IMG/VR virus record: IMGVR_UViG_3300047382_000180
Location: 1-33,901 of that record
Source of the DNA: a virus
Strand: one strand, 5' to 3'
Length of the DNA stretch: 33,901 bases
The notes beneath the pieces were generated by a model. It had not been told where the DNA came from. It did no database searches and saw only the letters and a program-made list of their open reading frames with translations. Below, in pieces: positions 1 to 33,901 of the stretch. Each line of letters begins with the position of its first letter. The stretch's first letter is position 1. Position numbers and translations under genes: made by a program.

Positions 1-39
1 GAAGACTACGAACCACTAGATACCATAGCGGGGTACTAA
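1..39 (+). CDS. C-terminal end of an upstream gene, probably terminase large subunit (partial)
   Basis: Frame 1 is open from the first base and ends in TAA at 37-39, giving the last 12 residues EDYEPLDTIAGY. The stop shares one base with the portal ATG (TAATG), the tight coupling seen throughout the window. Being directly upstream of a portal gene, this is most likely the end of the terminase large subunit. That identity rests on gene order only, since no motif is visible in 12 residues. Confidence 0.5.
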   Translation, partial: EDYEPLDTIAGY

Positions 40-1997
40 TGAGTAACGAAGATATATTCGATGACGGGCCGTTCGACGGTGAGTTAGCAGATTGGGTAAT
101 GGGTAAGTGCCAAGAGTGGCGCGACCATTACGAGAGTAACTACGCTCAGCGGCACGAAGAGTACTACCGCTTGTTCCGTAACCAGTGGTCCTCTGAGGAC
201 AACGAACGGTCCAGCGAGCGGTCTAAGCTAATTGCCCCAGCACTGGCGCAGGCCGTCGAGTCCAACGTTGCTGAGGTAGAGGAAGCCACATTCGGTCGAG
301 GTAAGATCTTCGACGTCCGTGACAACATCGGTGACGAGCAGACTGCCGACATGATGTTCCTACGTAAGAAGCTACACGACGAGTTCGCTGTTGCACGCGT
401 ACGTTCATCTGTTGCAGAGGTACTGGTCAACGCCGCAGTATACGGTACTGGTATCGCTGAGATCACTATCGACGAGCGTAAGGTATACCAGCCAGCTAGC
501 CGCCCCATCATGGACGGCGCTATGAACGAGATCGGTGTCAATGAGACTTACAAGCCGATCGTTAAGCTGAACCCGATACAGCCCAAGAACTTCCTGATCG
601 ACCCCGCCGCGTCATGCGTTGACGAGGCTGTCGGTTGTGCGATTGATGAGTACGTCAGCCGCCACGTGGTCGAGGAGTTACAGGAGCAGGGAGTGTATCG
701 CGATGACCAATTCATCGGCGAAGCCGCCGCAGAGGACGAGATCGAATTCGACTCGAAGGTGGACAGCCGACCCAAGGGACGTGTACGACTCACCAAGTAC
801 TACGGGAAAGTACCCAGAGATTACCTTATTGCAGAGGGAGTGGACGAAGACGATATCGCAGAAGCCGGTCACTACGTGGAAGCGATCGTCGTCCTTGCTA
901 ACAAGGGCGTTGTACTGAAGGCCATCCCTAACCCTTATATGTGTCAAGACCGCCCCGTCGTGGCGTTCCAGTGGGACATCGTTCCCAACATCTTCTGGGG
1001 CCGTGGCGTATGTGAGAAGGGCTACATGAGCCAGAAGGCGCTGGACGCTGAGCTACGTGCTCGCATCGATGCGCTCGCTCTGACGACACACCCGATGATG
1101 GCGGTTGATGCTACCCGTATCCCGCGAGGTCATAAGCTGGAAGTCCGTCCGGGCCGAATGCTCTTGACCAACGGCGCTCCGAGCGAGGCGCTCATGCCGT
1201 TCAACTTCGGTAACCTCAACGCCATCACCTTCCAGCAGGGACAACAGCTAGAGCAGATGGTCGCACAGGCAACTGGTGCTGACCTCTCGAAGGCCCAGAG
1301 CATGAACGACATCACGGCGGCTGGTCAGTCCATGTCGCAGGGTGCGATCATGAAGCGGCAGAAGCGTACCTTGGTTAACTTCCAAGAGAACTTCTTGTTG
1401 CCCTTCGTCAAGAAGGCGGCGTTCCGCTACATGCAGTTCAGCCCAGAAGAGTTCCCGATTGGTGACTACTCCTTCATTCCGTTCTCTAGCCTTGGTGCTA
1501 TGGCGCGGGAGTACGAGGTGGCCCAGCTATCGCAGATCCTTCAGACTATCCCGGTAGAGTCCGGGGCGCATGGTCCGATCACTAAGGCTATCGTAGATCA
1601 CCTCAACGTATCGAACCGAGAGGAGCTACTCCAAGCAATCGATCAGGCTAGCCAGCCAGATCCGCAGGCGGAACAGCAGGCTCAGCAGGCACAGCAGATG
1701 CAGATGGCTGTCACGCAGGGTCAGGTATCGCTCCTCAACGCACAGGCCCAAGAGTCCAACGCACGCGCCAACAAGTACAATGTGGAAGCTGAGATCAAGC
1801 CGCAAGAGGTTACGCTCCGTTACTCTGACACCAACCAAGACGGCGAGCAGGACAAGGACTTCGAGAAGCGGGTGAAGATGGCAGACCTGCTACTCCGTGA
1901 GCGAGAGGTTGAGAACAAGGAGCAGGCAAGCGTCGATGCGGCTAAGGCACGCGCAGAGAAGGAGCTGATTGCCCGACTTGCTGAGGAGAACGTATAA
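39..1997 (+). CDS. Portal (head-tail connector) protein
   Basis: A 652-residue protein of the size and character of podovirus portal proteins, the dodecameric ring at the capsid vertex through which DNA is packaged and ejected and on which the tail is built. The N-terminal part is charged and rich in aromatic residues. The middle alternates acidic loops with the hydrophobic strand/helix pattern of portal wing and stem regions. A conserved-looking helix with TGADLSKAQSMNDITAAG lies near residue 420. The C-terminus, from about residue 535, is rich in Gln, Ala and Glu and should form the long helical barrel. It follows the presumed terminase end directly and abuts the next gene without a gap. 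I recognise it by overall features and gene order. A precise family (P22-like or T7-like) cannot be fixed by eye. Confidence 0.85.
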   Translation: MSNEDIFDDGPFDGELADWVMGKCQEWRDHYESNYAQRHEEYYRLFRNQWSSEDNERSSERSKLIAPALAQAVESNVAEVEEATFGRGKIFDVRDNIGDEQTADMMFLRKKLHDEFAVARVRSSVAEVLVNAAVYGTGIAEITIDERKVYQPASRPIMDGAMNEIGVNETYKPIVKLNPIQPKNFLIDPAASCVDEAVGCAIDEYVSRHVVEELQEQGVYRDDQFIGEAAAEDEIEFDSKVDSRPKGRVRLTKYYGKVPRDYLIAEGVDEDDIAEAGHYVEAIVVLANKGVVLKAIPNPYMCQDRPVVAFQWDIVPNIFWGRGVCEKGYMSQKALDAELRARIDALALTTHPMMAVDATRIPRGHKLEVRPGRMLLTNGAPSEALMPFNFGNLNAITFQQGQQLEQMVAQATGADLSKAQSMNDITAAGQSMSQGAIMKRQKRTLVNFQENFLLPFVKKAAFRYMQFSPEEFPIGDYSFIPFSSLGAMAREYEVAQLSQILQTIPVESGAHGPITKAIVDHLNVSNREELLQAIDQASQPDPQAEQQAQQAQQMQMAVTQGQVSLLNAQAQESNARANKYNVEAEIKPQEVTLRYSDTNQDGEQDKDFEKRVKMADLLLREREVENKEQASVDAAKARAEKELIARLAEENV

Positions 1998-4640
1998 GTG
2001 TCCGATGACAACAGACCAGAGTTCCCTATGTTCAAGCTACTGGACAAGTTCCGTAGCGAGATCCAAGGAATCAGGGAAGAGGTTAAGGTAGGCACACGGG
2101 GACCGGAGGGACCGCAAGGCGACCCCGGACCTACGGGTGCGTCTGGCTCACAAGGACCGGAAGGCCCCCGCGGGCGTGATGGTAAGGACGGCGTACTGGG
2201 TACGGACGGTAGGGATGGTACAGATGGTGAGGACGGGGCGGACGGCGCAGACGGCCGTGGTATCCGTGAGATCAGCCAAGCCGCAGACGGCGACCTAGTC
2301 TTCGAGATGAGCGACGGTACTGAAGAGTACATCGACCTACCGTTCGGTCTCACCAACAACAACAGCTCCACCCAGATACTTGTACAGCATAACGGTGGCA
2401 GTGATAACGGCGGCACTGACTCTATACTCGACAAGCTTCCGCCCATGTCATCGGACGCTGATCCAGACACACTGGCCCTACGTGACAGCAACGCGGACTC
2501 TAAGTTCCGTCGCCTCACTATGGATCAGTTCGAGTGGAATAGCGGCACGAACACGCGCTCGGCAGACGACACGTTCTTCAGTGGTGACAGCTCGGCCGAC
2601 GACCGCCTGTACACTAACACGGCTACCGGTATGCGCGAGTCGCTGGACCTCTACAGCAAGTCCGAGGTGGACACGCTGGTAGGTCAGTCACCTAGCGACC
2701 CTACCGACCCAGCCGACCTGATCTCCACCGACGCTAACAACATCATCGTCGAAGGAACGGACGGCAAGCTGTTCGCTGAGGCTCCGCCTAACTCTGGCTC
2801 TGCTATGCTGAAGTGGCTGTACCTTAACGGCACTGCCGCCCCCGGACTGAACTACTTCCGTATGAACAGCACGGACCCGGCGGGAATCACAGAGCTGTAC
2901 TTGAACAAGACGGCCTACCCGAACTCATCAGTGGGCAACATCCTGTCCCTGTTGGATGTGGGCTACATGATCTACATGCAACAGCAGGACTTAGAAGACG
3001 CGTTCATTAACTTCACTGTAACTGGCGCGGTCGTAGACAACGGGGACTGGGTAACCGTACCCGTCGAGTCGTTCGACAACGGCGTGTTGTTCACAATCAA
3101 TACCTTCGTTGGTGCGTTGTTCTATCAAGGCGCTCAAGGAGGAGGTGGTGTAACCCCTGACGATTCCCTATCGAACTCCAAGGGTGCGGCACTAGCACTG
3201 GAGCAGTCCCTCCTAGCGAAGGACGGCCAGCCTGCCTTGACGGTACTAGCGGTAGGCGCTACGAACACAGGCAAGGTACAGGGATGTTCGCTAGGCGACG
3301 GTAACGTGGTCGAGGTGTACGCATCAGGTACGGACTACACCAACGCCAACGTACTGTACCGAGAGTTCATGGCGGCAGGTGAGCCTATCTGCTTCACGGG
3401 CCTGTCAGCGGGCGCGATCATCACATCGACGCAGGGGTTCTACGGATCTAGTGAGCAGGTAGAGGGCAACTATGAGTCGCCTATGCCGCTACTGTCTCTG
3501 GGTCTGGCGTTCACGGGTACGTTCATGTACGCCTTCCGTAACTCCAACAACTACCCCGGCGCAGGTAACTCCACCGGTCAGGTTACCGTGGTAAACGGTC
3601 CACTGCCTTCTACGGTTACGTTCACTAGGAACGGCAATCAGGTACAGGACCAAGAGCCTCGCGACCTTGCGCCGTTCGAGCTGACGCGGTTCTACACAGA
3701 CGCCAACGGAGAGTACTTCCTGTCTGGCACGTCAGCAGTCATGGCGTGTATTCAGGCGTATATGGGTAGCAACCCCGGTAGCAGTACTGCGCGATTCTAC
3801 GACGCACGTCTCGTTATGCCGCTGACCAACGACGGCATGACATGGCCCCGCTCTGGATTCGTGAGTGCACCATACGACAACACCACGTCCAAGTACTACG
3901 TACGTGACGGAGCTACTGGCGACTTCCCACCGGTGAGTCCCGGCTTCCCTGTAGACTTCGACGCGAACAGTAGTACAGGGGCCTCCGATCAGGACTATGA
4001 GCCCAACGGCTGTACACGCCTGCGGGTCAACGGTCTAGCGGTAGCGTACTCTGGTGCGGACTCGGCGGGCCTTGAGGCATCGCCCATGATTCCGGTCAGC
4101 GCCCTGTCGCAGGTGGTGGCACAGCCGTTCTTCATTAACGACAACGGCGACGGCGGTAACTCAGGCGTAGCCATCGGATCACCCTATGAGGGGACGGCCA
4201 AGTACTACGCTTGGAACGACGCCACAGGTAAGGCAGAGCTGGCATACACCGTCCCGCTCACGCGTGGCTCCGGCGGCGTAGGGATCGTACCTACCACCCC
4301 AGAGGATCAGTACTTCCCATGCTCGGGCATAATCGCTAACGAGTCTACCCTCGCCGCAGATCCAAGCGTCGTACAGCTCGCTAGCGACTTAGCCGCGGGT
4401 TACATCGTGGCAGACGTACCGATCACGGTCGTGAGCCAGAACGGTAATCCTGCGTGGCTTCCCACGGTTCGATCGCAGAACGGTACAACCACATCTCAGA
4501 TCATTATGGATGACGATGAGACGCTACAGCTCGGCTGGACGCCTGCAACTCTGAAGGCAGAGATTACTACTGACACAGAAGGCTTCACTAGGAAGCGTGT
4601 CGTAGACAACACGGGCACACCTACATACCCCTTGACCTAA
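1998..4640 (+). CDS. Collagen-like repeat fibre/appendage protein
   Basis: An 880-residue structural protein starting at GTG 1998, immediately after the portal stop, with a GAGGAG ribosome site at 1983-1988. Residues 1-31 form a charged, helix-prone head. Residues 32-87 are about eighteen uninterrupted Gly-X-Y triplets (GPE, GPQ, GDP, then GKD, GTD, GED, GAD), a textbook collagen-like segment that would trimerise as a rod. The remainder is low in cysteine and rich in Gly, Thr, Asn and Ser with alternating hydrophobics, as in beta-structured fibre tips. Collagen repeats are known in phage tail and head fibres. Its site between portal and scaffold instead of with the tail genes is unusual and leaves open whether it is a capsid or a tail appendage. 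Host attachment is the most likely role. Confidence 0.8.
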   Translation: MSDDNRPEFPMFKLLDKFRSEIQGIREEVKVGTRGPEGPQGDPGPTGASGSQGPEGPRGRDGKDGVLGTDGRDGTDGEDGADGADGRGIREISQAADGDLVFEMSDGTEEYIDLPFGLTNNNSSTQILVQHNGGSDNGGTDSILDKLPPMSSDADPDTLALRDSNADSKFRRLTMDQFEWNSGTNTRSADDTFFSGDSSADDRLYTNTATGMRESLDLYSKSEVDTLVGQSPSDPTDPADLISTDANNIIVEGTDGKLFAEAPPNSGSAMLKWLYLNGTAAPGLNYFRMNSTDPAGITELYLNKTAYPNSSVGNILSLLDVGYMIYMQQQDLEDAFINFTVTGAVVDNGDWVTVPVESFDNGVLFTINTFVGALFYQGAQGGGGVTPDDSLSNSKGAALALEQSLLAKDGQPALTVLAVGATNTGKVQGCSLGDGNVVEVYASGTDYTNANVLYREFMAAGEPICFTGLSAGAIITSTQGFYGSSEQVEGNYESPMPLLSLGLAFTGTFMYAFRNSNNYPGAGNSTGQVTVVNGPLPSTVTFTRNGNQVQDQEPRDLAPFELTRFYTDANGEYFLSGTSAVMACIQAYMGSNPGSSTARFYDARLVMPLTNDGMTWPRSGFVSAPYDNTTSKYYVRDGATGDFPPVSPGFPVDFDANSSTGASDQDYEPNGCTRLRVNGLAVAYSGADSAGLEASPMIPVSALSQVVAQPFFINDNGDGGNSGVAIGSPYEGTAKYYAWNDATGKAELAYTVPLTRGSGGVGIVPTTPEDQYFPCSGIIANESTLAADPSVVQLASDLAAGYIVADVPITVVSQNGNPAWLPTVRSQNGTTTSQIIMDDDETLQLGWTPATLKAEITTDTEGFTRKRVVDNTGTPTYPLT

Positions 4641-4694
4641 TAATAACGCCAAGGAAGGCGCTACCCAGAGGCACATTAACCCAAGGAACCCCTA

Positions 4695-6751: not shown

Positions 6752-6754
6752 CGC

Positions 6755-6783
6755 TTGACAGCTTAGAACGGATGTGATATACT
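6755..6783 (+). promoter_or_regulatory. Sigma-70-type promoter for the capsid module
   Basis: TTGACA at 6755-6760, a 17-base spacer and TATACT at 6778-6783, with TGA directly before the -10 giving an extended -10 (TGn). The -35 is perfect and the -10 is 5 of 6. It lies just after the stop of the preceding gene and about 50 bases before the first start of the capsid-assembly genes. Transcription would begin near 6790. It implies use of host RNA polymerase for virion genes. Confidence 0.8.
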
Positions 6784-6836: not shown

Positions 6837-6980
6837 ATGCAACCAGTAAGTACACAGAAGTTCGAAGAGCTAGTAGCTAGCACAACCTCCTACCTTCAGA
6901 AGCTGATGGATAAGTCTTCCGCGTTAGAGAAGCGCATCGAAGCACTAGAAGCTAAGAAGGGAGAGAAGAAGGATGGATGA
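6837..6980 (+). CDS. Short coiled-coil protein at the head of the capsid module
   Basis: A 47-residue protein. The open frame extends upstream to 6774, but that stretch overlaps the promoter and operator. ATG 6837 has an ideal AAGGAG at 6825-6830, six bases away, so it is taken as the start. The sequence is a single amphipathic helix (KLMDKSSALEKRIEALEAKK) with a heptad-like Leu/Ile pattern and a very basic C-terminus. It is a likely small oligomeric accessory of capsid assembly. No family is recognised. Confidence 0.7.
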   Translation: MQPVSTQKFEELVASTTSYLQKLMDKSSALEKRIEALEAKKGEKKDG

Positions 6981-7188
6981 TACGTACTTCGATAACGCCC
7001 GCGAGCTGTTCCTAACGCCGGGGTGGATCACCTTCCAAGAAGAATTACAAGCGGCACTCAACACCTGTACCCTAGACTCATGTAACACTACAGAAGAGTT
7101 CTGGCAGATGCGGGGTCGATTGCTTACACTAAGACAACTGGCAGGCTACGAGAACGCCTGTCTGGTCGCTGAGTCGCAAGATGCGTAA
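6973..7188 (+). CDS. Conserved-looking small protein, capsid module
   Basis: A 71-residue acidic protein overlapping the previous gene by eight bases. The pattern near the N-terminus (ARELFLTPGWITF, residues 9-21) resembles a small protein often found before scaffold and capsid genes of T7-like aquatic phages. Its role is not known to me. It is mostly helical, with three Cys and no membrane segment. It is coupled to the zinc-ribbon gene, whose start overlaps its end. Confidence 0.65.
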   Translation: MDDTYFDNARELFLTPGWITFQEELQAALNTCTLDSCNTTEEFWQMRGRLLTLRQLAGYENACLVAESQDA

Positions 7189-7396
7189 GATCATTGACGT
7201 ACGCTGTGGCTCCTGCGGTCATGTGCAAGAGGAGTTCGGACACCTTACCGACGCTTTCCGGTGCGGCGAGTGCGGTGGGGAGTCCGAGCGAATCATCAGT
7301 CCAGTTCGATGTGCACTTGAGGGTGTGTCAGGGGACTTCCCCGGCGCGGCCATTAAGTGGGCTAAGGACCGGACTAAGCGGGGCGGCAACTCCTAA
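7181..7396 (+). CDS. FmdB-type zinc-ribbon protein
   Basis: A 71-residue protein with CGSCG at residues 9-13 and CGECG at 28-32, two CxxC knuckles that would hold one zinc ion in a rubredoxin-like ribbon, followed by ESERIISP. This is the layout of FmdB-family ribbons. The C-terminal part, with GDFPGAAIKWAKDR, is a pattern shared by small phage proteins encoded just before scaffold genes. It overlaps the upstream gene by eight bases. Its molecular role in phages is unknown. Nucleic-acid or capsid-protein binding are both possible. Confidence 0.75.
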   Translation: MRKIIDVRCGSCGHVQEEFGHLTDAFRCGECGGESERIISPVRCALEGVSGDFPGAAIKWAKDRTKRGGNS

Positions 7397-7453
7397 GCCG
7401 GGAATCGCCCTTACATATAACGTTCCTCCCTGTTGGGATAAAGGAGATCAATA

Positions 7454-9198: not shown

Positions 9199-9253
9199 GA
9201 CTTACGGGGGAAACCGCAGAGGGAGTACCCCTTCCACATACCCGGAGAGCACA

Positions 9254-11588: not shown

Positions 11589-12695
11589 ATGCCAAGAGTA
11601 AGGTCAGACAATGATGCACGGTACGCACTGCGCGCATCGTTCGTTGATCCCGACGGGAATATACTCGAAGGTCCCATCGTAATCGGGTCTGCTAACGACC
11701 CGCGTATCAGCGATACCGACATCGCCAACTGGAACACAGCGTACGGCTGGGGCAACCACGCTGACGCTGATTATGCGTCCCTTACTAGTTCGCACGATAT
11801 CGACCGTGCGGCCGGTGGGTACTGGACCTTCAAGTCAAGTGGCGACATAACGGCGTCGAACGGTACAGCCAACGCGCTACAGGTGTACGCTGACAACAAT
11901 AACGACGCCTTCATGACGTTCCACGTGGGCGGCGACCACGCTACCAACCTAGGCTTGGATGGGGCTACTAACCGTCTCGGCTACGGCGGGTGGAGTGCAG
12001 GCAGTACGTTCTACAAGTTCTGGTCTACGCAGGACTTCGCGTCCGTCCCGTCCAGCCCAGTACAGTCAGGCACTGGCGGCGGCAACTACGGCTCTGTGCA
12101 CATCGACGGAGGTGGTACAGGTGGCTACGAGGGCTACAGCATCGGAGGCCGTGCGGTCTTCATGCACAACAACGGCTCCAACACTGGCCTCTACAACGAC
12201 GTCAACAACCACTGGCTCCTGCGTGGGGACCACAACGGTCCGTCGTACATGTACCAAGCTGGTGCCATCAAGGGATACACCTACGGCTCCGGCTTCCGCG
12301 TCACAGGCAACCTATTGGCTACCTCCGACGTATACGCATACTACTCGGACGAGCGGCTGAAGGACGTCGTAGGAGCCATTGAGAGCCCGCTGGAGAGCAT
12401 TGGGGCGATAGACACCTTCTACTACACCCATAACGATAAGGCCCGTGAGCTGGGCTATGAGGGCTCTGAGAGGCAGGTAGGCGTATCGGCCCAGTCTGTG
12501 CAGGCTGTACTGCCCGAGGTTATCGGACGCGCCCCCATCGACGACGATGGCGAAGGCGGCTCGGTGACGGGTGAGGACTACATGACAGTCAAGTACGATC
12601 GCATCGTACCTCTGCTGATTGAGGGCATTAAGGAGTTGACAAGCGAACTAGAATCTGTTAAACTAGAACTCAAGGAGTTGAAGAGTGACCGTTAG
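11589..12695 (+). CDS. Fibre protein with C-terminal S74 self-cleaving chaperone
   Basis: A 368-residue tail-fibre-type protein. Residues 1-250 are the Gly/Asn/Tyr-rich fibre part (GTGGGNYGSVHIDGGG near 160-175). At S253 begins SDERLKDVVGAI, the hallmark of the intramolecular chaperone auto-processing domain (peptidase S74). Ser253 and Lys258 are the expected dyad that cleaves just before the serine after trimer folding. GVSAQSVQAVLPEV and an EDYMTVKYDRIVPLL helix complete the domain, which ends in a coiled coil (ELTSELESVKLELKELK). The mature fibre would be about 252 residues. The end of the gene also contains a candidate promoter and the ribosome site of the next gene, which it overlaps by 11 bases. 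Confidence 0.88.
   Translation: MPRVRSDNDARYALRASFVDPDGNILEGPIVIGSANDPRISDTDIANWNTAYGWGNHADADYASLTSSHDIDRAAGGYWTFKSSGDITASNGTANALQVYADNNNDAFMTFHVGGDHATNLGLDGATNRLGYGGWSAGSTFYKFWSTQDFASVPSSPVQSGTGGGNYGSVHIDGGGTGGYEGYSIGGRAVFMHNNGSNTGLYNDVNNHWLLRGDHNGPSYMYQAGAIKGYTYGSGFRVTGNLLATSDVYAYYSDERLKDVVGAIESPLESIGAIDTFYYTHNDKARELGYEGSERQVGVSAQSVQAVLPEVIGRAPIDDDGEGGSVTGEDYMTVKYDRIVPLLIEGIKELTSELESVKLELKELKSDR
12636..12664 (+). promoter_or_regulatory. Candidate sigma-70 promoter inside the S74 fibre gene
   Basis: TTGACA at 12636-12641, a 17-base spacer and TAAACT at 12659-12664, with TGT just before the -10 (extended -10). The -35 is perfect and the -10 is 4 of 6. It lies in the coiled-coil coding end and 20 bases before the next start. 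It contains one of the very rare AAA triplets of this window, which hints that the site is kept for a reason. Confidence 0.55.
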
Positions 12696-24702: not shown

Positions 24703-25062
24703 ATGAATGAGGCAGAGATAACACGGAAGATAGGACACGTCGAGAGGGAACTCGTAACTCACTCGACGGTACTGGCGGCTAACGCTGAGTCCATGAAGGG
24801 TATGCTTGAGCGGTCGGACGAGAGGCTGGAGTACATACGCGAACGGTTCGACCGAGTCGAGGTGCTTATCAACGATGAGAGGGAGCAGTCCGAGGCGGCG
24901 AGCCGGCGCATCGTAGGCGCGGCGACGACCGCGTTCGCTACTGTGCTTACTGCTGTATGGTTCGCCGTCATCCAGCCGATACATGCGGAGATCGCGCTAC
25001 TAGAGAGGAGGCTGTTGGATGTTGAAGAGCGTACTGTTGTGCTCAATCGTCATGCTGGCTAG
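24703..25062 (+). CDS. Coiled-coil membrane protein, lysis cassette candidate
   Basis: A 119-residue protein. Residues 1-68 are charged and helical with heptads (ERSDERLEYIRERFDRVEVL). Residues about 71-92 (IVGAATTAFATVLTAVWFAVIQ) form one membrane helix. The rest (EIALLERRLLDVEERTVVL) is a second short coiled coil. One membrane segment flanked by coiled coils resembles XhlA-type or holin/spanin-like accessory proteins. Its last 44 bases overlap the lipoprotein gene, the nested arrangement common in spanin pairs. It could be a holin, an inner spanin or a signalling protein. The sequence cannot decide. Confidence 0.6.
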   Translation: MNEAEITRKIGHVERELVTHSTVLAANAESMKGMLERSDERLEYIRERFDRVEVLINDEREQSEAASRRIVGAATTAFATVLTAVWFAVIQPIHAEIALLERRLLDVEERTVVLNRHAG

Positions 25063-25378
25063 CTGTAGCACACTCGCACCGATAGCTAAGGATGCCCTCC
25101 TAGGAGGCGCTCAGCGGGGCATAGAGGCACGTGCTAACTTAGGACAGGCCAAGACAGAGGGTGCTGACAGCGTCGCTCAGAACGCTAATACGGCTGTCTC
25201 AGTGGATGCAGGTAGGCGGCAGGAGTACGGGGCGGTTGACACCGTGGTGAACGAGAGTGGCCTGCCAGTGCACGTGTTACTGTTGCTCGTACTGCTGGCA
25301 GGCTGGGCCATTCCGTCACCCGAAGAGATGGGTCACGGGCTGGCGCGGGTCGCCCGGTCCGTTAGGGGAGCGGGTTGA
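25019..25378 (+). CDS. Lipoprotein with C-terminal membrane segment, spanin candidate
   Basis: A 119-residue protein with a strong AGGAGG seven bases before ATG 25019. Residues 1-16 (MLKSVLLCSIVMLASC) are a lipoprotein signal with lipobox LASC, so Cys16 would be lipidated and placed in the outer membrane. About residues 80-95 (LPVHVLLLLVLLAGWAI) form a hydrophobic helix, followed by an Arg-containing tail. A lipid anchor at the N-terminus plus a membrane helix near the C-terminus is the design of one-piece spanins (T1 gp11 type) that fuse inner and outer membranes at lysis. An alternative is an outer spanin working with the upstream gene. No endolysin lies beside it. Confidence 0.6.
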   Translation: MLKSVLLCSIVMLASCSTLAPIAKDALLGGAQRGIEARANLGQAKTEGADSVAQNANTAVSVDAGRRQEYGAVDTVVNESGLPVHVLLLLVLLAGWAIPSPEEMGHGLARVARSVRGAG

Positions 25379-25817: not shown

Positions 25818-25982
25818 CTAGTTATCTTCCTTACTCTCCGTTACCGCCACGTATGCCTGTTCAAGCGCGTACGTAGCGAGTGCCAGAGTGTTCCTGTATA
25901 TCTGTATGCGGGTCCATTGGTAGCTGATGAACAGCCCCTGTCCCACACACAGAACCGCAAGTAGTATCTCGCTCTCGCTCAT
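25818..25982 (-). CDS. Small membrane protein
   Basis: A 54-residue protein starting at ATG 25982, which overlaps the stop of the upstream gene (ATGA), with GGAGGAG just ahead. The sequence runs MSESEILLAVLCVGQGLFIS, then YQWTRIQIYRNTLALATYAL and an acidic end (ESKEDN). The first half contains a moderately hydrophobic helix (residues 6-20) that may insert in the inner membrane, with the basic YQWTRIQIYR following inside. Function is unknown. Small membrane proteins in this place can be holin-like. Confidence 0.6.
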   Translation of the reverse strand: MSESEILLAVLCVGQGLFISYQWTRIQIYRNTLALATYALEQAYVAVTESKEDN

Positions 25983-26281
25983 CGTTGTAACTCCTCCGGA
26001 TGGTGCTTCAGTTGGTGGAGCATCTGCAACAGGTTACACATCGCGTGGCCTAGGTGACTGCGTCCTGACTCTAGGTCAAGATCCTCGCCTGCCTGCCACG
26101 CTGACATGTGACGCATGAGACACGCATACGATACGGTCCAGTGCGTCGGCCTCTTCCAGTTGTCACGCTCGTACTTACTGGCTCCGTACTCAAGCACCCG
26201 TGCCGCCTCTTCGAGAAGCTCCATAGGTACGAGGGAGTAGTCGGGCTTGCCTTCGTTGTAGCGCAAGGACCTCTCGCTCAT
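25979..26281 (-). CDS. MazZ-like dATP/dGTP diphosphohydrolase-type protein
   Basis: A 100-residue protein with a GGGAGG site before ATG 26281. LRYNEGKPDYSLVPMELLEE near the start, then VLEYGASKYERDNW, LMRHMSAWQAGEDLDLESGR and HLGHAMCNLLQM form the all-alpha pattern of the phage domain known as dATP/dGTP diphosphohydrolase N-terminal (DUF5664, MazZ-related). The His and acidic residues of GEDLDLESG and HLGHA are the likely metal and nucleotide ligands. In phages using 2-aminoadenine, MazZ supplies dGMP for PurZ. In many others the domain occurs alone, perhaps cleansing dNTP pools. No PurZ is seen in this window. Confidence 0.75.
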   Translation of the reverse strand: MSERSLRYNEGKPDYSLVPMELLEEAARVLEYGASKYERDNWKRPTHWTVSYACLMRHMSAWQAGEDLDLESGRSHLGHAMCNLLQMLHQLKHHPEELQR

Positions 26282-26445
26282 GACTCAGCCTCCCATCCAT
26301 CACACTGCAAGGAGATTACGGCCATGTAGCCCCACTCGGGTACGTCATCGTCTACCAGTACAGCATCAGGGAACCCCGCCTCAATAGCGCGGTCCTCAGT
26401 CTCGTAGTATATCGTGATAGTTAGGTCACTGTATGGTTGGCTCAT
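26278..26445 (-). CDS. Small acidic unknown protein
   Basis: A 55-residue gene read from ATG 26445 to TGA at 26278. Its stop overlaps the next ATG (ATGA), and a GAGGA site precedes it. The start is MSQPYSDLTITIYYETEDRA and the end includes VPEWGYMAVISLQCDGWEAE, a small alternating-strand protein with many acidic residues and two aromatic clusters. Coupling to both neighbours (20-base overlap upstream) supports reality. No family is recognised. Confidence 0.6.
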   Translation of the reverse strand: MSQPYSDLTITIYYETEDRAIEAGFPDAVLVDDDVPEWGYMAVISLQCDGWEAES

Positions 26446-26698
26446 CGTCTTCCTCGTTCATGTATTGCATGACGATCGCTGTCTTACCAAGATCCAGCAT
26501 GGTGTTCAGCCCATCGTTACCAGTAGCACTGTTGCCACACAACGCTACGCCTAGGTCAGGTACTAGTGCGACGCCTGCTACCTCTACGTCTACACCCCCT
26601 ACCTCGAACTGCTCAAGAAGATCCGCGAACTCACGCAACGCCTGAGACGCTGGTGTGCGGTCATCCTGCTTGCCTCCGGGGAACTCTATCACGGTCAT
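26426..26698 (-). CDS. Small unknown phage protein
   Basis: A 90-residue acidic protein whose ATG overlaps the stop of the upstream gene (ATGA at 26695-26698). It begins MTVIEFPGGKQDDRTPASQA, a pattern I have seen at the start of small phage accessory proteins. A helix (LREFADLLEQFEVGG) and a beta-rich middle (DVEVAGVALVPDLGVALCG) follow, with an acidic end (MNEEDDEPTIQ). No catalytic motif or membrane segment is visible. Function is unknown. Confidence 0.65.
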   Translation of the reverse strand: MTVIEFPGGKQDDRTPASQALREFADLLEQFEVGGVDVEVAGVALVPDLGVALCGNSATGNDGLNTMLDLGKTAIVMQYMNEEDDEPTIQ

Positions 26699-26977: not shown

Positions 26978-27657
26978 ACGCGTCTCACCTTCTTGCCTAG
27001 GTTCATGTACTCTATGTGTGGCTCGCCATCGATGACGACACCACATGCTACCACTGGCTTCTTGGCGAAGTGCTTGCCGTACGCGAACGCCATGTGCGCG
27101 TGGTCGACACCGCACCCGACAGCCATCCCCCAGACCAGCTCCTGATCCGTAGCGGTAGCACTGATGCCGGCGTTGCTGTGGTTATGGCCTGACACAGTAC
27201 ATCGCATACGAGTCTCAGCGTCCTTGCGGAAGCCGTTGATGCCTCCTGCTGTCTCACCGTGGTGGTACAGGACGTCATCGATCAGGAGCTGATCTGTCGC
27301 TCCCCAGCCCTCAGGCATGTTGAACAATTCCTCGACTGGTCGCATGAAGATACTCGGCTCCATGCCCAGCTTGCGTAGCTGACGTGCGGGGATGCGGTCG
27401 TGGTTACCCATGATGAGGGTAGCTACCGGGAACGCATCGTACCAGTCCTGCGCTCTCTCACGGGCAGACTCGTACTCGCCCATCACGTTGTGTAGCATGG
27501 GCTCGCTGTCGTGGAAGGACAGGCTGTGGTTGTCGAACATGTCTCCGATGTGTACTACGGTATCTACATCCCATGCGTCGAACGACTCCTGACAGAACTC
27601 AAGGTATCCATCTAGCTCGAATGGGAGATGAGTATCACCTATGATTCCTACGCGCAT
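26974..27657 (-). CDS. Calcineurin-like metallophosphoesterase
   Basis: A 227-residue enzyme with all the family metal-binding blocks: GDTH (Asp8, His10), GDMFDN (Asp39), GNHD (84-87), the lone histidine pair near 132, and GHNH (157-160). These coordinate two metal ions for phosphodiester or phosphomonoester hydrolysis. A GGAGGAAG site precedes ATG 27657, which shares one base with the endonuclease VII stop. It lies downstream of the exonuclease and endonuclease genes, so action on DNA ends, nucleotides or host RNA is plausible. The exact substrate cannot be read from sequence. Confidence 0.85.
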   Translation of the reverse strand: MRVGIIGDTHLPFELDGYLEFCQESFDAWDVDTVVHIGDMFDNHSLSFHDSEPMLHNVMGEYESARERAQDWYDAFPVATLIMGNHDRIPARQLRKLGMEPSIFMRPVEELFNMPEGWGATDQLLIDDVLYHHGETAGGINGFRKDAETRMRCTVSGHNHSNAGISATATDQELVWGMAVGCGVDHAHMAFAYGKHFAKKPVVACGVVIDGEPHIEYMNLGKKVRRV

Positions 27658-28049
27658 TATCTCTTCCTCCGCTTACGACGCTTCGGCTTACCGTGCGTCG
27701 GGTGAACAGGGTTGTTAGTGTAGTCGACCTGCCAGTACTCCAGCAGATTCGTTATGAATTCAGCCGGGTCATCGCCCTTGCTACGCTGGCCTGCCCAGTG
27801 AAGTATCTTCCCCTCGGCAGAGTTACAGCTACGGTGTAGCGTCTGGCGTACATGTCCGGTGGTGTGGTCGTGATCTAACGCTGACTCGGTTGGGTCGCAG
27901 GGTAAACCGCACAGGGGGCATACGCCACCCTGCCGGTCTAGTTGCGCCAAGCGCCACTCCCGTATATCGGAGTGCTTCACGCTGGTGGCGACCACAGTTG
28001 CTGTGGTTCCCGTCGTATCCAGAGGCAGTGGCCCTGCTGGGCTAGCCAT
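27657..28049 (-). CDS. Recombination endonuclease VII
   Basis: A 130-residue nuclease of the T4 gp49 family, which cuts branched DNA such as Holliday junctions before packaging. CPLC at 44-47 is the first zinc pair. LDHDHTTG at 58-65 is the catalytic His-Me finger. HRSC at 72-75 is the second pair, with His where T4 has Cys, followed by Asn76 and AEG. The end is strongly basic (KPKRRKRRKR). The start is uncertain. ATG 28049 has AAGGTG upstream but lies 73 bases inside the exonuclease gene. GTG 27980 makes a 4-base GTGA overlap with the exonuclease stop and would give an N-terminus of the usual family length. Confidence 0.85.
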   Translation of the reverse strand: MASPAGPLPLDTTGTTATVVATSVKHSDIREWRLAQLDRQGGVCPLCGLPCDPTESALDHDHTTGHVRQTLHRSCNSAEGKILHWAGQRSKGDDPAEFITNLLEYWQVDYTNNPVHPTHGKPKRRKRRKR

Positions 28050-28699
28050 CTAGTTACGTCACCTTCGTCACTGGACATGCGCTTATCCTTTACCGCTTCC
28101 ATGTACACTTCGAGCACGTGAGCGTACATGTCGCGAGGATCAGTCATCTCTGCCAGCGGAGCCTTGACCTTAGCCGTAGCCTTGCGTCCTGTCCGCTGGA
28201 AGATACCGGGTATGTTATCCACCCGATCTCCAGTGAGTAGCTGAGTGTAGAAGAAGCGGTCGGCATCGTGACCCCCTACGTGGTAGACCTCGTCTCGGTT
28301 CCAGTTATAGTGCCAACCGGGTACTCCGTCGAGATCCTTGTCCAGCGTAGCGATGCCCCATCCGTCACGCACTGCGTATATCCCAAGTAGATCGTCAGCT
28401 TCTTCGTTGTCGGCTGTTATACCATCTAATTCGGTCATGACATAATGCTTCAGTGCTTGGAAGTGTACTGGCTTATCCGTACCTGTCCGGTTCGCCTTGT
28501 ACGTTGGCACTGAGTTACGGTAGTTGTCAGGCCCAGTCAAGAAGACTTGAGCTTGGCTACACTCGCACCCATCCATGATCCGTTGCAGTGTGTGGCGGAA
28601 GGAACGGATAGCTTCTTCCTCCGTGTCCTCGTTAGAGGCGAATCCCACTGCGTACAGCAGGATGTCGCCATCAATGCCCCATATACTAGGGCGATTCAT
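27977..28699 (-). CDS. 5'-3' exonuclease (FEN/T7 gp6-like)
   Basis: A 240-residue flap/5'-3' exonuclease. The acidic metal ligands are in order: Asp10 and Asp12 (WGIDGDILLY), Glu99/Glu100 with Asp102/Asp103 (NEEADDLLG), Asp120 and Asp122 (TLDKDLDGVPGWHYNW), and Asp158 with Asp161 (LLTGDRVDNIPGI, also the helix-hairpin-helix start). In T7-like phages this enzyme removes primers and degrades host DNA. It starts at ATG 28699, overlapping the SSB stop by one base, in the order SSB, exonuclease, endonuclease VII. Confidence 0.88.
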   Translation of the reverse strand: MNRPSIWGIDGDILLYAVGFASNEDTEEEAIRSFRHTLQRIMDGCECSQAQVFLTGPDNYRNSVPTYKANRTGTDKPVHFQALKHYVMTELDGITADNEEADDLLGIYAVRDGWGIATLDKDLDGVPGWHYNWNRDEVYHVGGHDADRFFYTQLLTGDRVDNIPGIFQRTGRKATAKVKAPLAEMTDPRDMYAHVLEVYMEAVKDKRMSSDEGDVTRWLAQQGHCLWIRREPQQLWSPPA

Positions 28700-29139
28700 T
28701 ACAGTACTTCTTCTTCAGCGAAGTCCTGCACCTCTGGCTTAGCCAGCTCCTCTACGATCAGCGCCACGATGCTGGGCTTAGCGTCGCCCTGCTTGGTGGT
28801 GTACGTCTTGATCTTAGCCTTAACAACAGAGCCGTAGCCGATGTCAGAAGGCAGGCCCTCGAACGGTGTGCGTCCGTCTGCCTCGAACAGTGTGTTGAAG
28901 CGACCGCCGTTAGTGATCGGGAACTGAGAGCGGCAGTGGATGAACTGCCCACGGTTAAGCTCGTCGTCCTTGAACTTGACTTCGATACCTAGCTCTTCCA
29001 ATCGCTCGACCGCAGGGCCGGAGAGGTTAGCAAGTTGCACCCCGTACTTGTCAGTCGGCTGTCCCTTGAACGTCTCGAACACGTCGAGTGCGGGGAAGCT
29101 AACGGTAGCGCGGATAGTTACTGTGTCGTTGTTAATCAT
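28699..29139 (-). CDS. Single-stranded DNA-binding protein (T7 gp2.5-like)
   Basis: A 146-residue OB-fold type protein. An N-terminal strand set (VTIRATVSFPALDVFETFKG) is followed by YGVQLANLSGPAVERLEELG, a loop with GQFIHCRSQFPITNGGRF, and YGSVVKAKIKTYTTKQGDAK. It closes with an acidic tail (EVQDFAEEEVL), the feature by which gp2.5-type proteins contact polymerase and helicase. It begins its own transcription unit after a 66-base gap holding a promoter candidate, with GAGGA before ATG 29139. It would coat single strands at the fork and aid annealing. Confidence 0.8.
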   Translation of the reverse strand: MINNDTVTIRATVSFPALDVFETFKGQPTDKYGVQLANLSGPAVERLEELGIEVKFKDDELNRGQFIHCRSQFPITNGGRFNTLFEADGRTPFEGLPSDIGYGSVVKAKIKTYTTKQGDAKPSIVALIVEELAKPEVQDFAEEEVL

Positions 29140-29180
29140 GTTGAGTCCTCGTTTAGTCTCAGCAACATGCTGATTAGTTT

Positions 29181-29209
29181 AAGGTACACGGTATTGTACC
29201 TGTTGTCAA
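29181..29209 (-). promoter_or_regulatory. Leftward promoter candidate for SSB and downstream genes
   Basis: On the minus strand TTGACA at 29209-29204 overlaps the polymerase stop codon. After 17 bases follows TACCTT at 29186-29181, a weak -10. The 66-base gap (29140-29205) is one of only two real intergenic gaps in the leftward block and holds two of the rare TTT triplets. A 6-base inverted repeat overlaps the -10, which supports a regulatory site. Confidence 0.45.
29182..29201. repeat. Inverted repeat at the SSB promoter
   Basis: AGGTAC at 29182-29187 and GTACCT at 29196-29201 are perfect reverse complements separated by eight bases. One arm covers the candidate -10 and the other lies in the spacer. 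This geometry suits a repressor or activator site. A small hairpin in the polymerase transcript tail is the alternative. Confidence 0.45.
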
Positions 29210-30843
29210 TGGGTATCACTCCAGTTATCTCCGATCATGTAGTCCCCCTCAAGTGGACATCTCATGTCGAAGTGTCTACCCGCATCACGTATAGCGTTGC
29301 GGAAGCAGACAGCTACGCGCTTGGCATCAGCCTCAGCGCATTCGATCTGCCATTCATCGTGTACGTTAGCGACTATGTTGTAGTCCAAGCCGTAGCTGTC
29401 GGCCTTGGTTATGCCTAGTTGCAACGCCTTCTTCATCACGATAGCCCCAGCAGACTGGAGCAGAGAGTTGAGTGCGGCGTGCTCACTACGTACGTTGATA
29501 CGCCTGCCATCAAGCCCCGGTACTGTGCCACCCTTAGCAATGCGGGTAGTCTTGTTAATCAGTTGTCGATACCCCGGCCAGCTAGCCTCGTATCGTGAAC
29601 GCATCTTGCGTCCTGCATCCCTGCCCTTACCTACCACGCTACCCAGCTTGGCGTCACCCGCACCGTACAGCAGTGCGTAGATCAGCGTCTTCGCTTGGTC
29701 ACGTGTCGCGCAACCGAAGGCGTTCTGGTTGGCGGTGTGGATGTCACCGTCGGTCACCTCATGGGTGAAGCGGTCATCGTCCATGTAGTGGGCCAGCATC
29801 CGTAGCTCCAGACCGGAGGCGTCTACACCCACCAGCTTCTTGCCCTCTGGCACAGTGAAGCAGGCACGGTAGTCTGAGCCGCTTGGTATCTGTGCGAGGT
29901 TAGGTCTGCTGTGTGTCATGCGCCCGGTCACGGTCCCGTTGCTGTTGACGTAGCCATGTATGCGCTTGTCGTCTGCGTAGTTATCCAGCCACGACTTCAC
30001 CATACCACTGCGCTTGTTCAGCGTGAGGTACTCTAAGACCAGCGCCGCCTCAGGAATGTGCGTGAGGTTAGCAAGGGTGTTCTCATCAACAACAACCGAG
30101 CCCTTCTCTGTGCGCTTCTTCCACTTAGCACCCTTCTCCTCAAGGCGTCGGGCAATCTGTTGGCGGGATGCGACGTTGAACGTCTCGACCCTGTCCTTGA
30201 GTTGCTTGCCAGTCTTCTCCGACCACCTCTCATGTACGATGGGAGTGAACACCTCCTGAAGGATCTCGTTAATCTCAAGCTGTCTCTCCTTCTGTGCGTT
30301 GTACGTTGCGTTCGCTCTGTCGTAGTCGAAGAAGAAGCCGTGCTCCTCCTGCTTACGCAACGCCGCTGACACGTAGTGCTCTAGCTCGAAGCACTCGTCC
30401 TTGAAGCCCTCTTCCTCGAACCTCTGGAGTAGGTAGTGGTACACGTGCCAGTTGACACGGCAGTCACGCAGGCAGTACTCAATCATCTCGTCCGTCAGTC
30501 CACCATCGAAGTCGGTGAAGTCACCCTTCTGTTCGTGACCGGCGAGCGTGGCGAGGTTAGCAAGTGAGTTGCTGAACTGACTGCCAGCGCCGTTAGGATT
30601 AAGCAGACGAGCAAGAACAAGTGTATCAGTAATCGTAACCGACGGGTCAGGTTCCCAGCCCAGCGCATCACGCAGTACCGGTAGGTCGAAGTGAAGGATG
30701 TTGTGGCCGATCATCTCGGTCATGTCCTTCGGGATGTCCGACGCTGATGAACTCCAAGAAGTGTTCCCATCTTCGTCGCACCACCCAATCATCCACACCT
30801 TGGAGTGTGTCCGGTCCGTCTCTATGTCTAGTACGTAACGCAT
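29206..30843 (-). CDS. DNA polymerase, PolA family with 3'-5' exonuclease
   Basis: A 545-residue replicative polymerase, taking ATG 30843 as start because AGGAGG lies six bases ahead (the frame opens further up at 30870). Exonuclease motifs: Asp6-x-Glu8 (LDIETD), GHNILHFD with Asp53, and Tyr123/Asp127 (YCLRD). Polymerase motif A has Asp341 (GVDASGLELRMLAHYM), motif B Arg381, Lys385 and Tyr389 (RDQAKTLIYALLYGAG), motif C His-Asp496-Glu (NVHDEWQIE). It aligns by eye with T7 gp5 but lacks the roughly 70-residue thioredoxin-binding insertion in the thumb and is about 160 residues shorter. Tyr389 matches T7 Tyr526, the residue often Phe or Leu in other aquatic phages. Confidence 0.93.
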   Translation of the reverse strand: MRYVLDIETDRTHSKVWMIGWCDEDGNTSWSSSASDIPKDMTEMIGHNILHFDLPVLRDALGWEPDPSVTITDTLVLARLLNPNGAGSQFSNSLANLATLAGHEQKGDFTDFDGGLTDEMIEYCLRDCRVNWHVYHYLLQRFEEEGFKDECFELEHYVSAALRKQEEHGFFFDYDRANATYNAQKERQLEINEILQEVFTPIVHERWSEKTGKQLKDRVETFNVASRQQIARRLEEKGAKWKKRTEKGSVVVDENTLANLTHIPEAALVLEYLTLNKRSGMVKSWLDNYADDKRIHGYVNSNGTVTGRMTHSRPNLAQIPSGSDYRACFTVPEGKKLVGVDASGLELRMLAHYMDDDRFTHEVTDGDIHTANQNAFGCATRDQAKTLIYALLYGAGDAKLGSVVGKGRDAGRKMRSRYEASWPGYRQLINKTTRIAKGGTVPGLDGRRINVRSEHAALNSLLQSAGAIVMKKALQLGITKADSYGLDYNIVANVHDEWQIECAEADAKRVAVCFRNAIRDAGRHFDMRCPLEGDYMIGDNWSDTH

Positions 30844-30885
30844 CAGCGCCCTCCTGTATGCGGTATACATGCCGCGTCATCTTAC

Positions 30886-31134
30886 TCATAGTTGTTCCTT
30901 AGCTCGGAAGCTCTGACCAACGTAGTAGCTCAGCTCGCAGTGACCTTCCTCACCAATAAGACTGAACACACTATCGATAATAGCACGGCCGATAGCGTAG
31001 CGCAAGCGGTGACGTCTCAGCCAGCATGTCTCACTCAGTGTGTACGGGTAAGGTGCGTTCCCTAAGTGTAACGTCTGGTTGAACAGGATGCTAACACATG
31101 CCGCCCAAGCACGTAGCCTGTAGCCTAAGGTCAT
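30886..31134 (-). CDS. Conserved small phage protein between polymerase and helicase
   Basis: An 82-residue basic protein starting at ATG 31134, overlapping the primase-helicase stop by four bases (ATGA). The pattern FNQTLHLGNAPYPYTLSETC, then WLRRHRLRYAIG, and the late GEEGHCELSY matches in outline a small phage protein family (an N-x-L-x-x-G-x-P...T-x-S core followed by a His-Cys) commonly encoded near replication genes. Its function is not known to me. It contains four Cys and two His and may bind metal or nucleic acid. Confidence 0.7.
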   Translation of the reverse strand: MTLGYRLRAWAACVSILFNQTLHLGNAPYPYTLSETCWLRRHRLRYAIGRAIIDSVFSLIGEEGHCELSYYVGQSFRAKEQL

Positions 31135-32750: not shown

Positions 32751-32931
32751 CCTTCACTCCTGTGTTATACCTCCCCAATGTATCATAGTGGTCATCCTTA
32801 CGCAACCACGGTGCGGCAAGCCGCCGCTTCACCTGTTGGTAGTGATAGCACAGCCCGTACCACTCTTGTATGCTGATCTCTACACCGTCGTAGAAGTATG
32901 CTCCATTGTTCTCAGTCATTCTGCTATGCAC
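32734..32931 (-). CDS. Small charged unknown protein before the primase-helicase
   Basis: A 65-residue protein. GTG 32931 is chosen because AGGAGG (32945-32940) lies eight bases ahead. ATG 32919 in the same frame has no good site. The sequence (MTENNGAYFYDGVEISIQEW, then YGLCYHYQQVKRRLAAPWLR) ends in a very acidic tail (KDEDEL). Its end overlaps the primase-helicase start by 17 bases. An aromatic helix followed by a basic patch could bind DNA or protein. No family is recognised. Confidence 0.6.
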   Translation of the reverse strand: MHSRMTENNGAYFYDGVEISIQEWYGLCYHYQQVKRRLAAPWLRKDDHYDTLGRYNTGVKDEDEL

Positions 32932-32961
32932 TTGACAAGCCTCCTGTTGACCGGTTATACT
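32932..32961 (+). promoter_or_regulatory. Rightward sigma-70-like site opposing the leftward genes
   Basis: On the plus strand TTGACA at 32932-32937, an 18-base spacer and TATACT at 32956-32961. Both boxes are strong, but the direction is against the surrounding genes. It would start an antisense transcript near 32968 into 33028 and beyond. The ribosome site of the small gene on the other strand overlaps the spacer. It may be a true antisense promoter or chance. Confidence 0.4.
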
Positions 32962-33021
32962 ACAATAACATAACGTCACTTAACGATACTCTGCTGTGGT
33001 TCTTATGTAACAACCACCACA

Positions 33022-33051
33022 GTAACGTTAAGTACTTAAAGTATACGTTAC
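33022..33051. repeat. Nested palindromes near an intergenic gap
   Basis: GTAACGT (33022-33028) pairs with ACGTTAC (33045-33051). Between them is a perfect 12-base palindrome TTAAGTACTTAA (33028-33039). Just to the left, GTGGTT (32996-33001) pairs with AACCAC (33012-33017). The cluster is AT-rich compared with its surroundings, contains a rare AAA, and borders the 96-base gap 32932-33027. An operator or a replication-linked element is possible. Confidence 0.5.
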
Positions 33052-33270
33052 GTACTCAGTATCGTCGTCCTCTGGGATGTGAACTGCCTCACCAAGAGCC
33101 TGCCACTGACCAACACGTGCCATGATCTCTGCTGTGGGGTCGTACGGTAGGTAGGTAATCTCACCACCCCGTGCCAGATACTCTTCGGTATGCCTCGCGA
33201 TCTCCTCGCGTTGCTGTTGCTTGTTATCCAAGTTGACCCCGGACTTACTGAACTCAAGTCTATCCTTCAT
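33028..33270 (-). CDS. Small unknown protein, possible DNA-binding type
   Basis: An 80-residue protein. ATG 33270 overlaps the upstream stop (ATGA) and has GGAG five bases ahead, so it is preferred over ATG 33285. The segment REEIARHTEEYLARGGEITYLP (residues about 21-42) matches a pattern (helix, GG, x-[IV]-T-x-L-P) frequent in short phage proteins thought to be regulatory or DNA-binding. The rest is acidic. Function is not established. Confidence 0.62.
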   Translation of the reverse strand: MKDRLEFSKSGVNLDNKQQQREEIARHTEEYLARGGEITYLPYDPTAEIMARVGQWQALGEAVHIPEDDDTEYVTYTLST

Positions 33271-33479
33271 GACCTCTCCACGCACTGTCTCAGTGCTTCA
33301 ATCTCATCGATGCTCAGCGGTGCTTCCACCCTGTGCTCAGCCTGCACCTGTACACGCTGTAAGCGTATGTCTACATAACCCTTGGCGGTAAGCCTGTCCT
33401 TGTCACACAAGGCGTCAGACTCATGAGCGTAGATCATACGTAGCTTGCCCTCGCTGTACATAACAATCACTTCAGTCAT
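33267..33479 (-). CDS. Small unknown protein
   Basis: A 70-residue protein with ATG 33479 preferred (GAGGAG upstream). ATG 33497 in the same frame is possible. The first half is beta-prone (MTEVIVMYSEGKLRMIYAHE) with DALCDKDRLTAKGYVDIRLQ following. The end is helical (LSIDEIEALRQCVERS). It is coupled by ATGA to the next gene and overlaps the tiny membrane gene by eight bases. No family is recognised. Confidence 0.6.
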   Translation of the reverse strand: MTEVIVMYSEGKLRMIYAHESDALCDKDRLTAKGYVDIRLQRVQVQAEHRVEAPLSIDEIEALRQCVERS

Positions 33480-33564
33480 CCTTGTGATTCTCCTCATTCC
33501 ACTGAGATATAATCAGGGCCAGCATGAACACAATCACTATACCAATCGCTAGGTCAGCCATCAT
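33472..33564 (-). CDS. Tiny single-pass membrane protein
   Basis: A 30-residue gene from ATG 33564, which overlaps the upstream stop (ATGA), to TGA 33472. Residues 3-20 (ADLAIGIVIVFMLALIIS) are a membrane helix. The tail (QWNEENHKDD) is charged. Coupling on both sides and the clean hydrophobic helix make it a likely real gene despite its size. Function is unknown. Confidence 0.55.
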   Translation of the reverse strand: MMADLAIGIVIVFMLALIISQWNEENHKDD

Positions 33565-33782
33565 TGCAGGTTCTCCTTACTGAAGCGTTGCACAACGTCG
33601 CGTATCTCACGTAGCTCAGTGACCCGCTCGCACATGTCGTCGAGGATACCCTCAAGCGGGACCAGTGCGGCGGCGGCAACCCAGTCATCGGTCTGCGCTA
33701 GGTCGTAACATGCTTGAGCAAGTGCGTCACATGCCTTGTCTATCATCTTGATATTACTCTTGTTGTTCTCTACCCCACTCAT
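33561..33782 (-). CDS. Small helical unknown protein
   Basis: A 73-residue protein with GGAGG nine bases before ATG 33782. It is nearly all helix (MIDKACDALAQACYDLAQTD, then LVPLEGILDDMCERVTELRE) with regularly spaced Leu and Ala, two Cys in the first half and one later. It resembles small dimeric helical bundles. The upstream stop overlaps its start by two bases and its stop overlaps the tiny membrane gene. No family is recognised. Confidence 0.62.
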   Translation of the reverse strand: MSGVENNKSNIKMIDKACDALAQACYDLAQTDDWVAAAALVPLEGILDDMCERVTELREIRDVVQRFSKENLQ

Positions 33783-33901
33783 ATGTATGGCCCTCCTAGA
33801 GCTTCCTCTGACACCGCCTCCGGCAGTGTTCCGTCTATCTGATCCATCAGGTTAGAGTAATGCGACACGTTGATCCACTGCTGAGTGTGCGTGTACTCAC
33901 C
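33779..33901 (-). CDS. C-terminal end of an upstream leftward gene (partial)
   Basis: Open to the right edge and ending with TGA at 33781-33779. The visible 40 residues include EYTHTQQWINVSHYSNLMDQ and end EEALGGPYI. The end of the gene also carries the GGAGG of the next gene. Tight coupling supports coding. Too little is seen to name it. Confidence 0.55.
   Translation of the reverse strand, partial: GEYTHTQQWINVSHYSNLMDQIDGTLPEAVSEEALGGPYI

Follow-up and report, generated by a model that had tools for sequence, protein, structure and literature searches.

Motif avoidance in phages is already known for restriction sites and for PAMs. Restriction-site avoidance represents the near-complete selective loss of a short motif from virulent double-stranded DNA phages (PMC6286503). 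PAM depletion linked to CRISPR-bearing hosts likewise concerns a short motif, was examined with codon-preserving controls and is attributed to selection and not mutation (PMC4246573). In the co-evolution of Rok and Bacillus, a genome is short of the very k-mers that a protein reading the minor groove prefers (PMC6212790). The phage genome described here resembles each of these systems and departs from each of them.

The window analysed in this study is the whole of a phage genome contig, positions 1 to 33,901 (33,901 nucleotides) of IMG/VR record IMGVR_UViG_3300047382_000180, and nearly all AAA and TTT trinucleotides are missing from it. What sets it apart from restriction-site avoidance is that the lost motif, a non-palindromic homopolymer, spans 3 bp, that the loss of hundreds of sites was gradual, that hundreds are still present in intermediate relatives and that flank preference varies by lineage. 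The flank independence of a restriction site was not found, given that avoidance is flank-dependent in the relative G003 and different again in the window lineage. Compared with PAM depletion, the effect reaches about 50-fold and extends to TTTT, and a sister lineage loses AATT, for which no TTT PAM accounts. TpA-rich DNA, preferred by Rok, MvaT and H-NS, is retained here, and the present effect is far stronger and occurs in a phage. Alteromonas phage ZP6, a marine podovirus with a 2-aminoadenine genome, carries nucleotide-pool genes and is comparable to the window in that respect, since the window carries a dATP/dGTP diphosphohydrolase domain.

No paper on phages that avoid AAA/TTT or A-tracts came up in narrow literature searches, and a broader search returned general motif-avoidance papers. 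We are aware of no published genome from which all AAA/TTT has been purged, nor of any account in which the purging of A-tracts evolves as a graded trait. If an outside factor causes the depletion, the pattern is a readable footprint of the specificity of that factor and could help to find it. Should the phage itself be responsible, the pattern is a chemistry-free way of telling its own DNA from that of the host. The question can already be tested, since close relatives represent every stage of depletion.

Extent of the loss and the runs that remain

Open reading frames were called mechanically, and open-ended calls were used for the coding/non-coding split. The reading frames and their annotation describe a tailed phage with portal, capsid and fibres, and a replication block with a family A polymerase and a DnaB-Toprim primase-helicase. 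Structural genes lie on the plus strand left of about 25.4 kb, and replication genes lie on the minus strand rightward.

Exact counting gave seven AAA and four TTT (Table 1), compared with about 415 and about 296 expected from mononucleotide composition and 230 and 152 expected from a first-order Markov model. The original prediction, made by eye, had listed six AAA and four TTT where hundreds of each were expected; this expectation and all ten listed runs proved correct, and the AAA at 3593 had been missed. GGG and CCC were near normal (0.75 and 0.98), and AAT/ATT were mildly low (0.65–0.68).

Synonymous codons were permuted within each gene, thereby preserving every protein and all codon counts. 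Outside the reading frame, AAA occurred 2 times against 163 expected and TTT 2 times against 121 (combined, 4 against about 284), and no shuffle approached the observed value. In frame, AAA served 2 of the 375 Lys codons, one more than the single exception reported earlier, and TTT served none of the 353 Phe codons, as had been stated. The proposed dependence of codon choice on the next base was also recovered: before A, GAA was used 0 times and GAG 147 times, compared with 122 and 146 (122 of 268) before G, and CAA was used 0 times and CAG 79 times before A. The non-coding DNA of the window contained 1 AAA/TTT against 47 expected, with TAA/TTA at 48 against 47, and AAAA plus TTTT in its coding DNA stood at 0/27. 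The depletion was present in both gene orientations and strand-symmetric, and the Lys and Phe content was nearly unchanged. About 98% of AAA/TTT has been removed from the DNA of the window lineage with the proteins left unchanged.

Codon preference alone was ruled out by the shuffle with protein and codons fixed and by the equally depleted non-coding DNA; together with the agreement of both strands, these results uphold the earlier claim of a strand-symmetric pressure at the DNA level. An RNA-level cause was rejected because the pattern is strand-symmetric, ranks the flanks alike on either strand and extends to non-coding DNA. A sequencing or assembly artefact was rejected on the basis of intact reading frames and the recurrence of the pattern in relatives across several metagenomes.

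Eight of the 11 residual runs recur at matching places of G001, L162 or G003, and several of the 11 occupy a ribosome-binding site (7440) or intergenic and regulatory spots. Function apparently keeps the regulatory runs, as judged from this conservation, with G001 so close that some sharing is expected regardless. The palindromic stretch listed last among the runs lies upstream of the replication genes and is likely a control region.

Table 1 Coordinates of residual runs and candidate genes in the window
Feature	Coordinates	Strand	Remarks
Whole window	1..33901		AAA/TTT at about 2% of expectation (counts versus expectation)
Residual AAA in portal gene	807..809	+	Exact count
Residual AAA in collagen-like fibre gene	3593..3595	+	Exact count
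Residual TTT in ACGCTTTCCGG	7255..7257	+	Conserved in L162
Residual AAA in GGATAAAGGAG	7440..7442	+	Ribosome-binding site just upstream of ATG 7454; same sequence in L162 and G003
Residual AAA in non-coding gap after capsid gene	9211..9213	+	Kept in L162 (GGGGAAACCGT); similar in G003 (GGGGAAAGCAC)
Residual AAA (TGTTAAACTAG) near 3' end of tail-fibre gene	12660..12662	+	Exact count
Residual AAA (27904) and TTT (28089), endonuclease VII/exonuclease overlap region	27904..28091	-	Both kept in G001
Two residual TTT (29152, 29178), regulatory gap separating the polymerase from the SSB-like gene	29152..29180	-	Both kept in G001
Residual AAA in AT-rich palindromic stretch 33020-33060 (GTTAAGTACTTAAAGTATACGTTACGTAC; AACGTTAAGTACTTAAAGTATACGTTACGTAC)	33038..33040		Kept in G001
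dATP/dGTP diphosphohydrolase domain gene	25979..26281	-	PF18909, E 7e-30
90-aa acidic protein	26426..26698	-	In 9/14 depleted, 0/5 non-depleted relatives
82-aa protein between polymerase and helicase	30886..31134	-	In 9/14 depleted, 0/5 non-depleted relatives

Gradient among relatives and the case for selection

Relatives were picked by homology: viral contigs were searched with portal, polymerase, capsid, helicase and diphosphohydrolase-domain queries, and several hundred loci were returned, many of them short. Composition was compared over about 420 loci at least 4 kb long, and the portal served as the marker for the gradient and the tree. Relative to mononucleotide expectation, AAA/TTT stood at 0.02 in the window, 0.04 in G001, 0.08 in G044 (20 kb) and 0.10 in G003 (38 kb), at 0.2–0.6 in the wider clade and at about 1 in other relatives. 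The depletion thus recurs among relatives, graded from 0.02 to about 1. In the portal tree, the window and G003 fall in different subclades, the other members of each being intermediate, and in the helicase tree the strongest cases all lie within one supported clade. Both trees, taken with the gradient, indicate that depletion is a graded trait, which has changed more than once or been relaxed in places.

A mutation bias, with AAA/TTT hypermutable or A converted in that context, could in principle give a near-complete, genome-wide and strand-symmetric loss if it were strong and context-dependent. At fourfold sites before AA, the base frequencies in the window were A 0.01, C 0.40, G 0.18 and T 0.41, compared with A 0.17, C 0.30, G 0.12 and T 0.41 in normal relatives. 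The lost A was not turned specifically into G because C, T and G all replace it, and this replacement contradicts A-to-G conversion. In the depleted pair G003/G044 (89.8% identical), 10 run sites were shared and 17 were unique, so that 10 of 17–20 were shared; in a normal pair (91.6% identical), 41 were shared and 43 unique (41 of 59–66 shared). Unique run sites numbered 1.5 per kb in the depleted pair versus 11.9 per kb in the normal pair. The similar pace of loss combined with few unique sites shows that new runs are kept from fixing, and not that old ones are mutated away. Hypermutability of AAA/TTT was rejected: existing sites decay at a near-normal pace, and the creation of runs is missing and not merely transient.

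The creation of runs was examined through isolated nucleotide differences in run-capable contexts, and the fraction involving the run-making base was compared with that in control contexts. In these comparisons, where differences are unpolarised (no outgroup), numbers are modest and pairs from one lineage are partly dependent on each other, the fraction was 0.12 versus 0.39 in controls for G003/G044 (odds 0.22, p 7e-11), 0.11 versus 0.43 for the window and G001 (odds 0.17, p 5e-5) and 0.00 (0/26) versus 0.60 for the window and L162 (odds 0, p 5e-9). The pair L028/L014, at about 0.2 of expectation, gave 0.24 (p 0.004). The odds were 0.78–1.2 in normal pairs and 0.52–1.07, not significant, in intermediate pairs. 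Run-creating differences were about 5-fold or more under-represented, and in depleted lineages only. Under a mutation–selection balance, an observed/expected ratio of 0.10 predicts 0.26, and 0.22 was observed, with 2Ns about 2–4. Because the suppression fits this simple balance, per-site effects are tiny and additive, and lethality of single runs is not required.

We conclude from the close-pair comparisons that ongoing purifying selection on DNA very probably keeps the runs out and is satisfied by synonymous changes. Near-normal decay of AAA, missing run-creating differences, replacement of A by C, T and G alike and conservation of regulatory runs leave a mutation bias scarcely credible as the explanation. 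Of the selection or mutation that had been offered jointly before this analysis, the former is supported and the latter is rejected.

Exchanged segments bear on how the selection could act. In L162 (capsid 93% identical), three runs in 5.6 kb are followed by 20 runs in 640 bp. The run-rich segment (L162 5630-6273) is the distal part of a tail fibre, in frame with the depleted proximal part, and the last 2 kb of L013 likewise show ordinary run density. The L162 segment looks like a recent uptake of ordinary DNA, a module swap visible by composition, with a chimera possible at this position near the contig end. Persistence of such segments disfavours a factor that kills at single sites, and the nuclease suggested originally is hard to square with 20 runs in 640 bp if it killed in that manner.

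Avoided words and possible readers of A:T runs

In most members, AAAA, AAAT and AATT are lost first, then AAAC and then AAAG, and TTAA is kept. The words lost by most members (AAAA, AAAT and AATT) coincide with the published definition of an A-tract, namely AnTm with n+m at least 4 and without TpA (PMC6212790). In the coding DNA of G003 and G044, A-tract words occurred once against 219 expected, AATT stood at 1/52, and AAAG/CTTT remained at 0.36. Ordered by flank, the values in these two genomes were 0.36 for AAAG, 0.06 for AAAC and 0 for AAAA, and both strands agreed (AAAG 0.32 and CTTT 0.41; AAAC 0.05 and GTTT 0.08). In the window lineage, AAA is near-absent in every flank (AAAG 0.04; GC-flanked AAA 0.04), and AATT stands at 0.32 versus 0.47 in non-depleted relatives. 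The pattern expected of an A-tract reader, in which AnTm words of at least 4 are avoided and TpA words are not, was seen in G003 and most relatives, with AATT in the window lineage at just 0.32 against 0.47 in non-depleted relatives. AATT and AAAG numbered 19 and 9 in the lineage of the window and 1 and 78 in that of G003 (p 2e-13), a double dissociation that counts of recent changes repeat. We read the two flavours as two specificities, AAA in any context for the window and A-tracts plus AAAC for G003, because no single scale of strength or stiffness accounts for the two lineages together. TpA-containing words in the window compared with the shuffle were at 1.24–1.51 (TTAA), 0.92 (TATA) and 0.87 (TAAT).

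A-tracts are stiff, and the minor groove is narrowed along them. An intrinsic physical cost, by which A-tracts slow the replication, packaging or ejection of this phage, is consistent with the loss of the rigid motifs (AAAA, AAAT, AATT) and the retention of TTAA and TATA in most members. However, the window lineage tolerates AATT and not GC-flanked AAA, the reverse of the stiffness order and of G003, and in many related phages AAA/TTT is normal despite shared replication genes; we regard this explanation as quite unlikely.

Lsr2 belongs to actinomycetes. Its preference for A-tracts and its insensitivity to TpA steps agree with the G003 flavour (PMC4466236, PMC6212790), and the depletion of Rok's preferred 5-mers in the genome of its host is a precedent for such an imprint (PMC6212790). 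Escape from a known xenogeneic silencer of the H-NS, MvaT, Lsr2 or Rok type is nevertheless very unlikely. H-NS and MvaT favour TpA-rich DNA, but TTAA, TATA and TAA are not avoided, and MvaT and Rok disfavour A-tracts. The A-tract-binding silencer put forward in the original prediction fares poorly on this evidence: MvaT, Rok and H-NS predict a loss of TATA and TTAA that is not seen, and Lsr2, which fits better, is itself unlikely in a host that is probably Gram-negative.

The PAM of Cas12a is TTTV, and TTTT and AATT would be spared. To our knowledge, no restriction enzyme has a 3-bp A-run site. Avoidance of a type V, TTTV-like CRISPR PAM or of a restriction site is highly improbable here, given that TTTT is avoided too and AATT is avoided in G003, even though a PAM load could act additively per site and short-motif depletion in phages is documented for both (PMC4246573, PMC6286503).

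Gene content and the favoured explanation

The gene content of 14 depleted and 5 non-depleted relatives was compared, and this comparison yields correlates and not a cause. Homologs of the diphosphohydrolase-domain gene with at least 73% identity (73–100%) were present in 14 of 14 depleted members, and a close form was present in 0 of 5 non-depleted relatives. The gene is 93–100% conserved in most of the strongly depleted members, where the polymerase is 54–88% identical. A dATP shortage during infection, brought about by the encoded protein and making A runs costly to copy, would account for this association. AATT and TTAA need the same A's, however, and are treated in opposite ways in G003. 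The family occurs in 931 phage records, measured loci with more distant homologs have normal or high AAA/TTT, and within one clade the association may reflect shared descent. Such a shortage is very unlikely, and the gene as a sufficient cause was rejected on the grounds that the family is common elsewhere and the association is correlative within one clade.

No modification gene tracking the depletion was found, and the modification system raised earlier is not confirmed. PurZ (PF00709) was absent from 13 related records, including ones of 36–40 kb, and 14 of 14 control genomes were positive. In ZP6, AAA/TTT stands at 1.21 and AATT at 1.33 of expectation; with PurZ absent from the relatives and ZP6 undepleted, 2-aminoadenine (Z) DNA was rejected.

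A phage-encoded means of telling self from non-self would have a nuclease, repressor or transcription-blocking protein of the phage act on run-rich host DNA, with its own genome purged. The small 82-aa and 90-aa genes are confined to depleted members, and the trait follows the replication-gene tree. Against this, neither Pfam nor PHROGs reveals a DNA-reading domain in the candidate genes, and recently swapped run-rich segments persist. Endonuclease VII (27657-28049) is the sole recognisable nuclease candidate of the window and was not found in depleted G003 and L083, by which it was dismissed as the cause. Self/non-self discrimination is unlikely on balance; it ranks next after a host factor and is followed by intrinsic mechanics. 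At the endonuclease VII position, G003 and several relatives carry a different 143-aa gene (G003 28987-29415).

Our preferred explanation, which we advance tentatively, is continuing selection by which the phage evades a host factor able to recognise short A:T runs, with a host-dependent preference. Purifying selection very probably acts on double-stranded DNA against A:T runs with all A on one strand (AAA/TTT, and A-tracts in sister lineages). Run-rich segments are tolerated, so that each run carries a small cost, and a synonymous third-base change can remove any genic run, thereby allowing the genome to near zero without protein cost. The cost would come from something in the infected cell that recognises such runs, most likely a DNA-binding or DNA-cutting protein of the host whose preference differs between hosts. 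Phages with fewer sites would be bound, silenced or damaged less, and residual runs would stay largely at conserved regulatory spots where they are needed. It is conceivable, and we suggest it with reserve, that these hosts carry an undescribed antiviral or nucleoid factor reading at least three A:T pairs, with hundreds of sites purged and the two imprints produced by differing flank preferences.

No usable host was obtained from genome contigs: portal alignment and capsid protein searches matched just distant-phage contigs, with 44–57% capsid identity and assignment to MAGs of several phyla. The probable Gram-negative host comes from a spanin-like lipoprotein gene with a lipobox at 25019-25378. 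Further features of the window and its relatives were observed. A small protein at 33028-33285 matches the SutA RNA-polymerase-binding domain (PF20661, E 1e-8) and, as judged from this domain match, may serve the phage by modulating host RNA polymerase; used as a query against phages, it gave no matches. A short, very basic Lys/Gly-rich protein of about 80 aa is encoded at 6913-7164 and in L162 (272-535), and its composition makes it a possible DNA-binding virion protein. G003 and relatives have a 650-aa gene (L242 6239-8188, minus strand) in which a reprolysin-like metallopeptidase motif is recognised; the window lacks it. In the synonymous-shuffle comparison, GTAC, CTAG and TTAA were over-represented in the window, and TGCA and CGCG were under-represented. 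Enrichment of CTAG is unusual for many bacteria and may offer a clue to the host.
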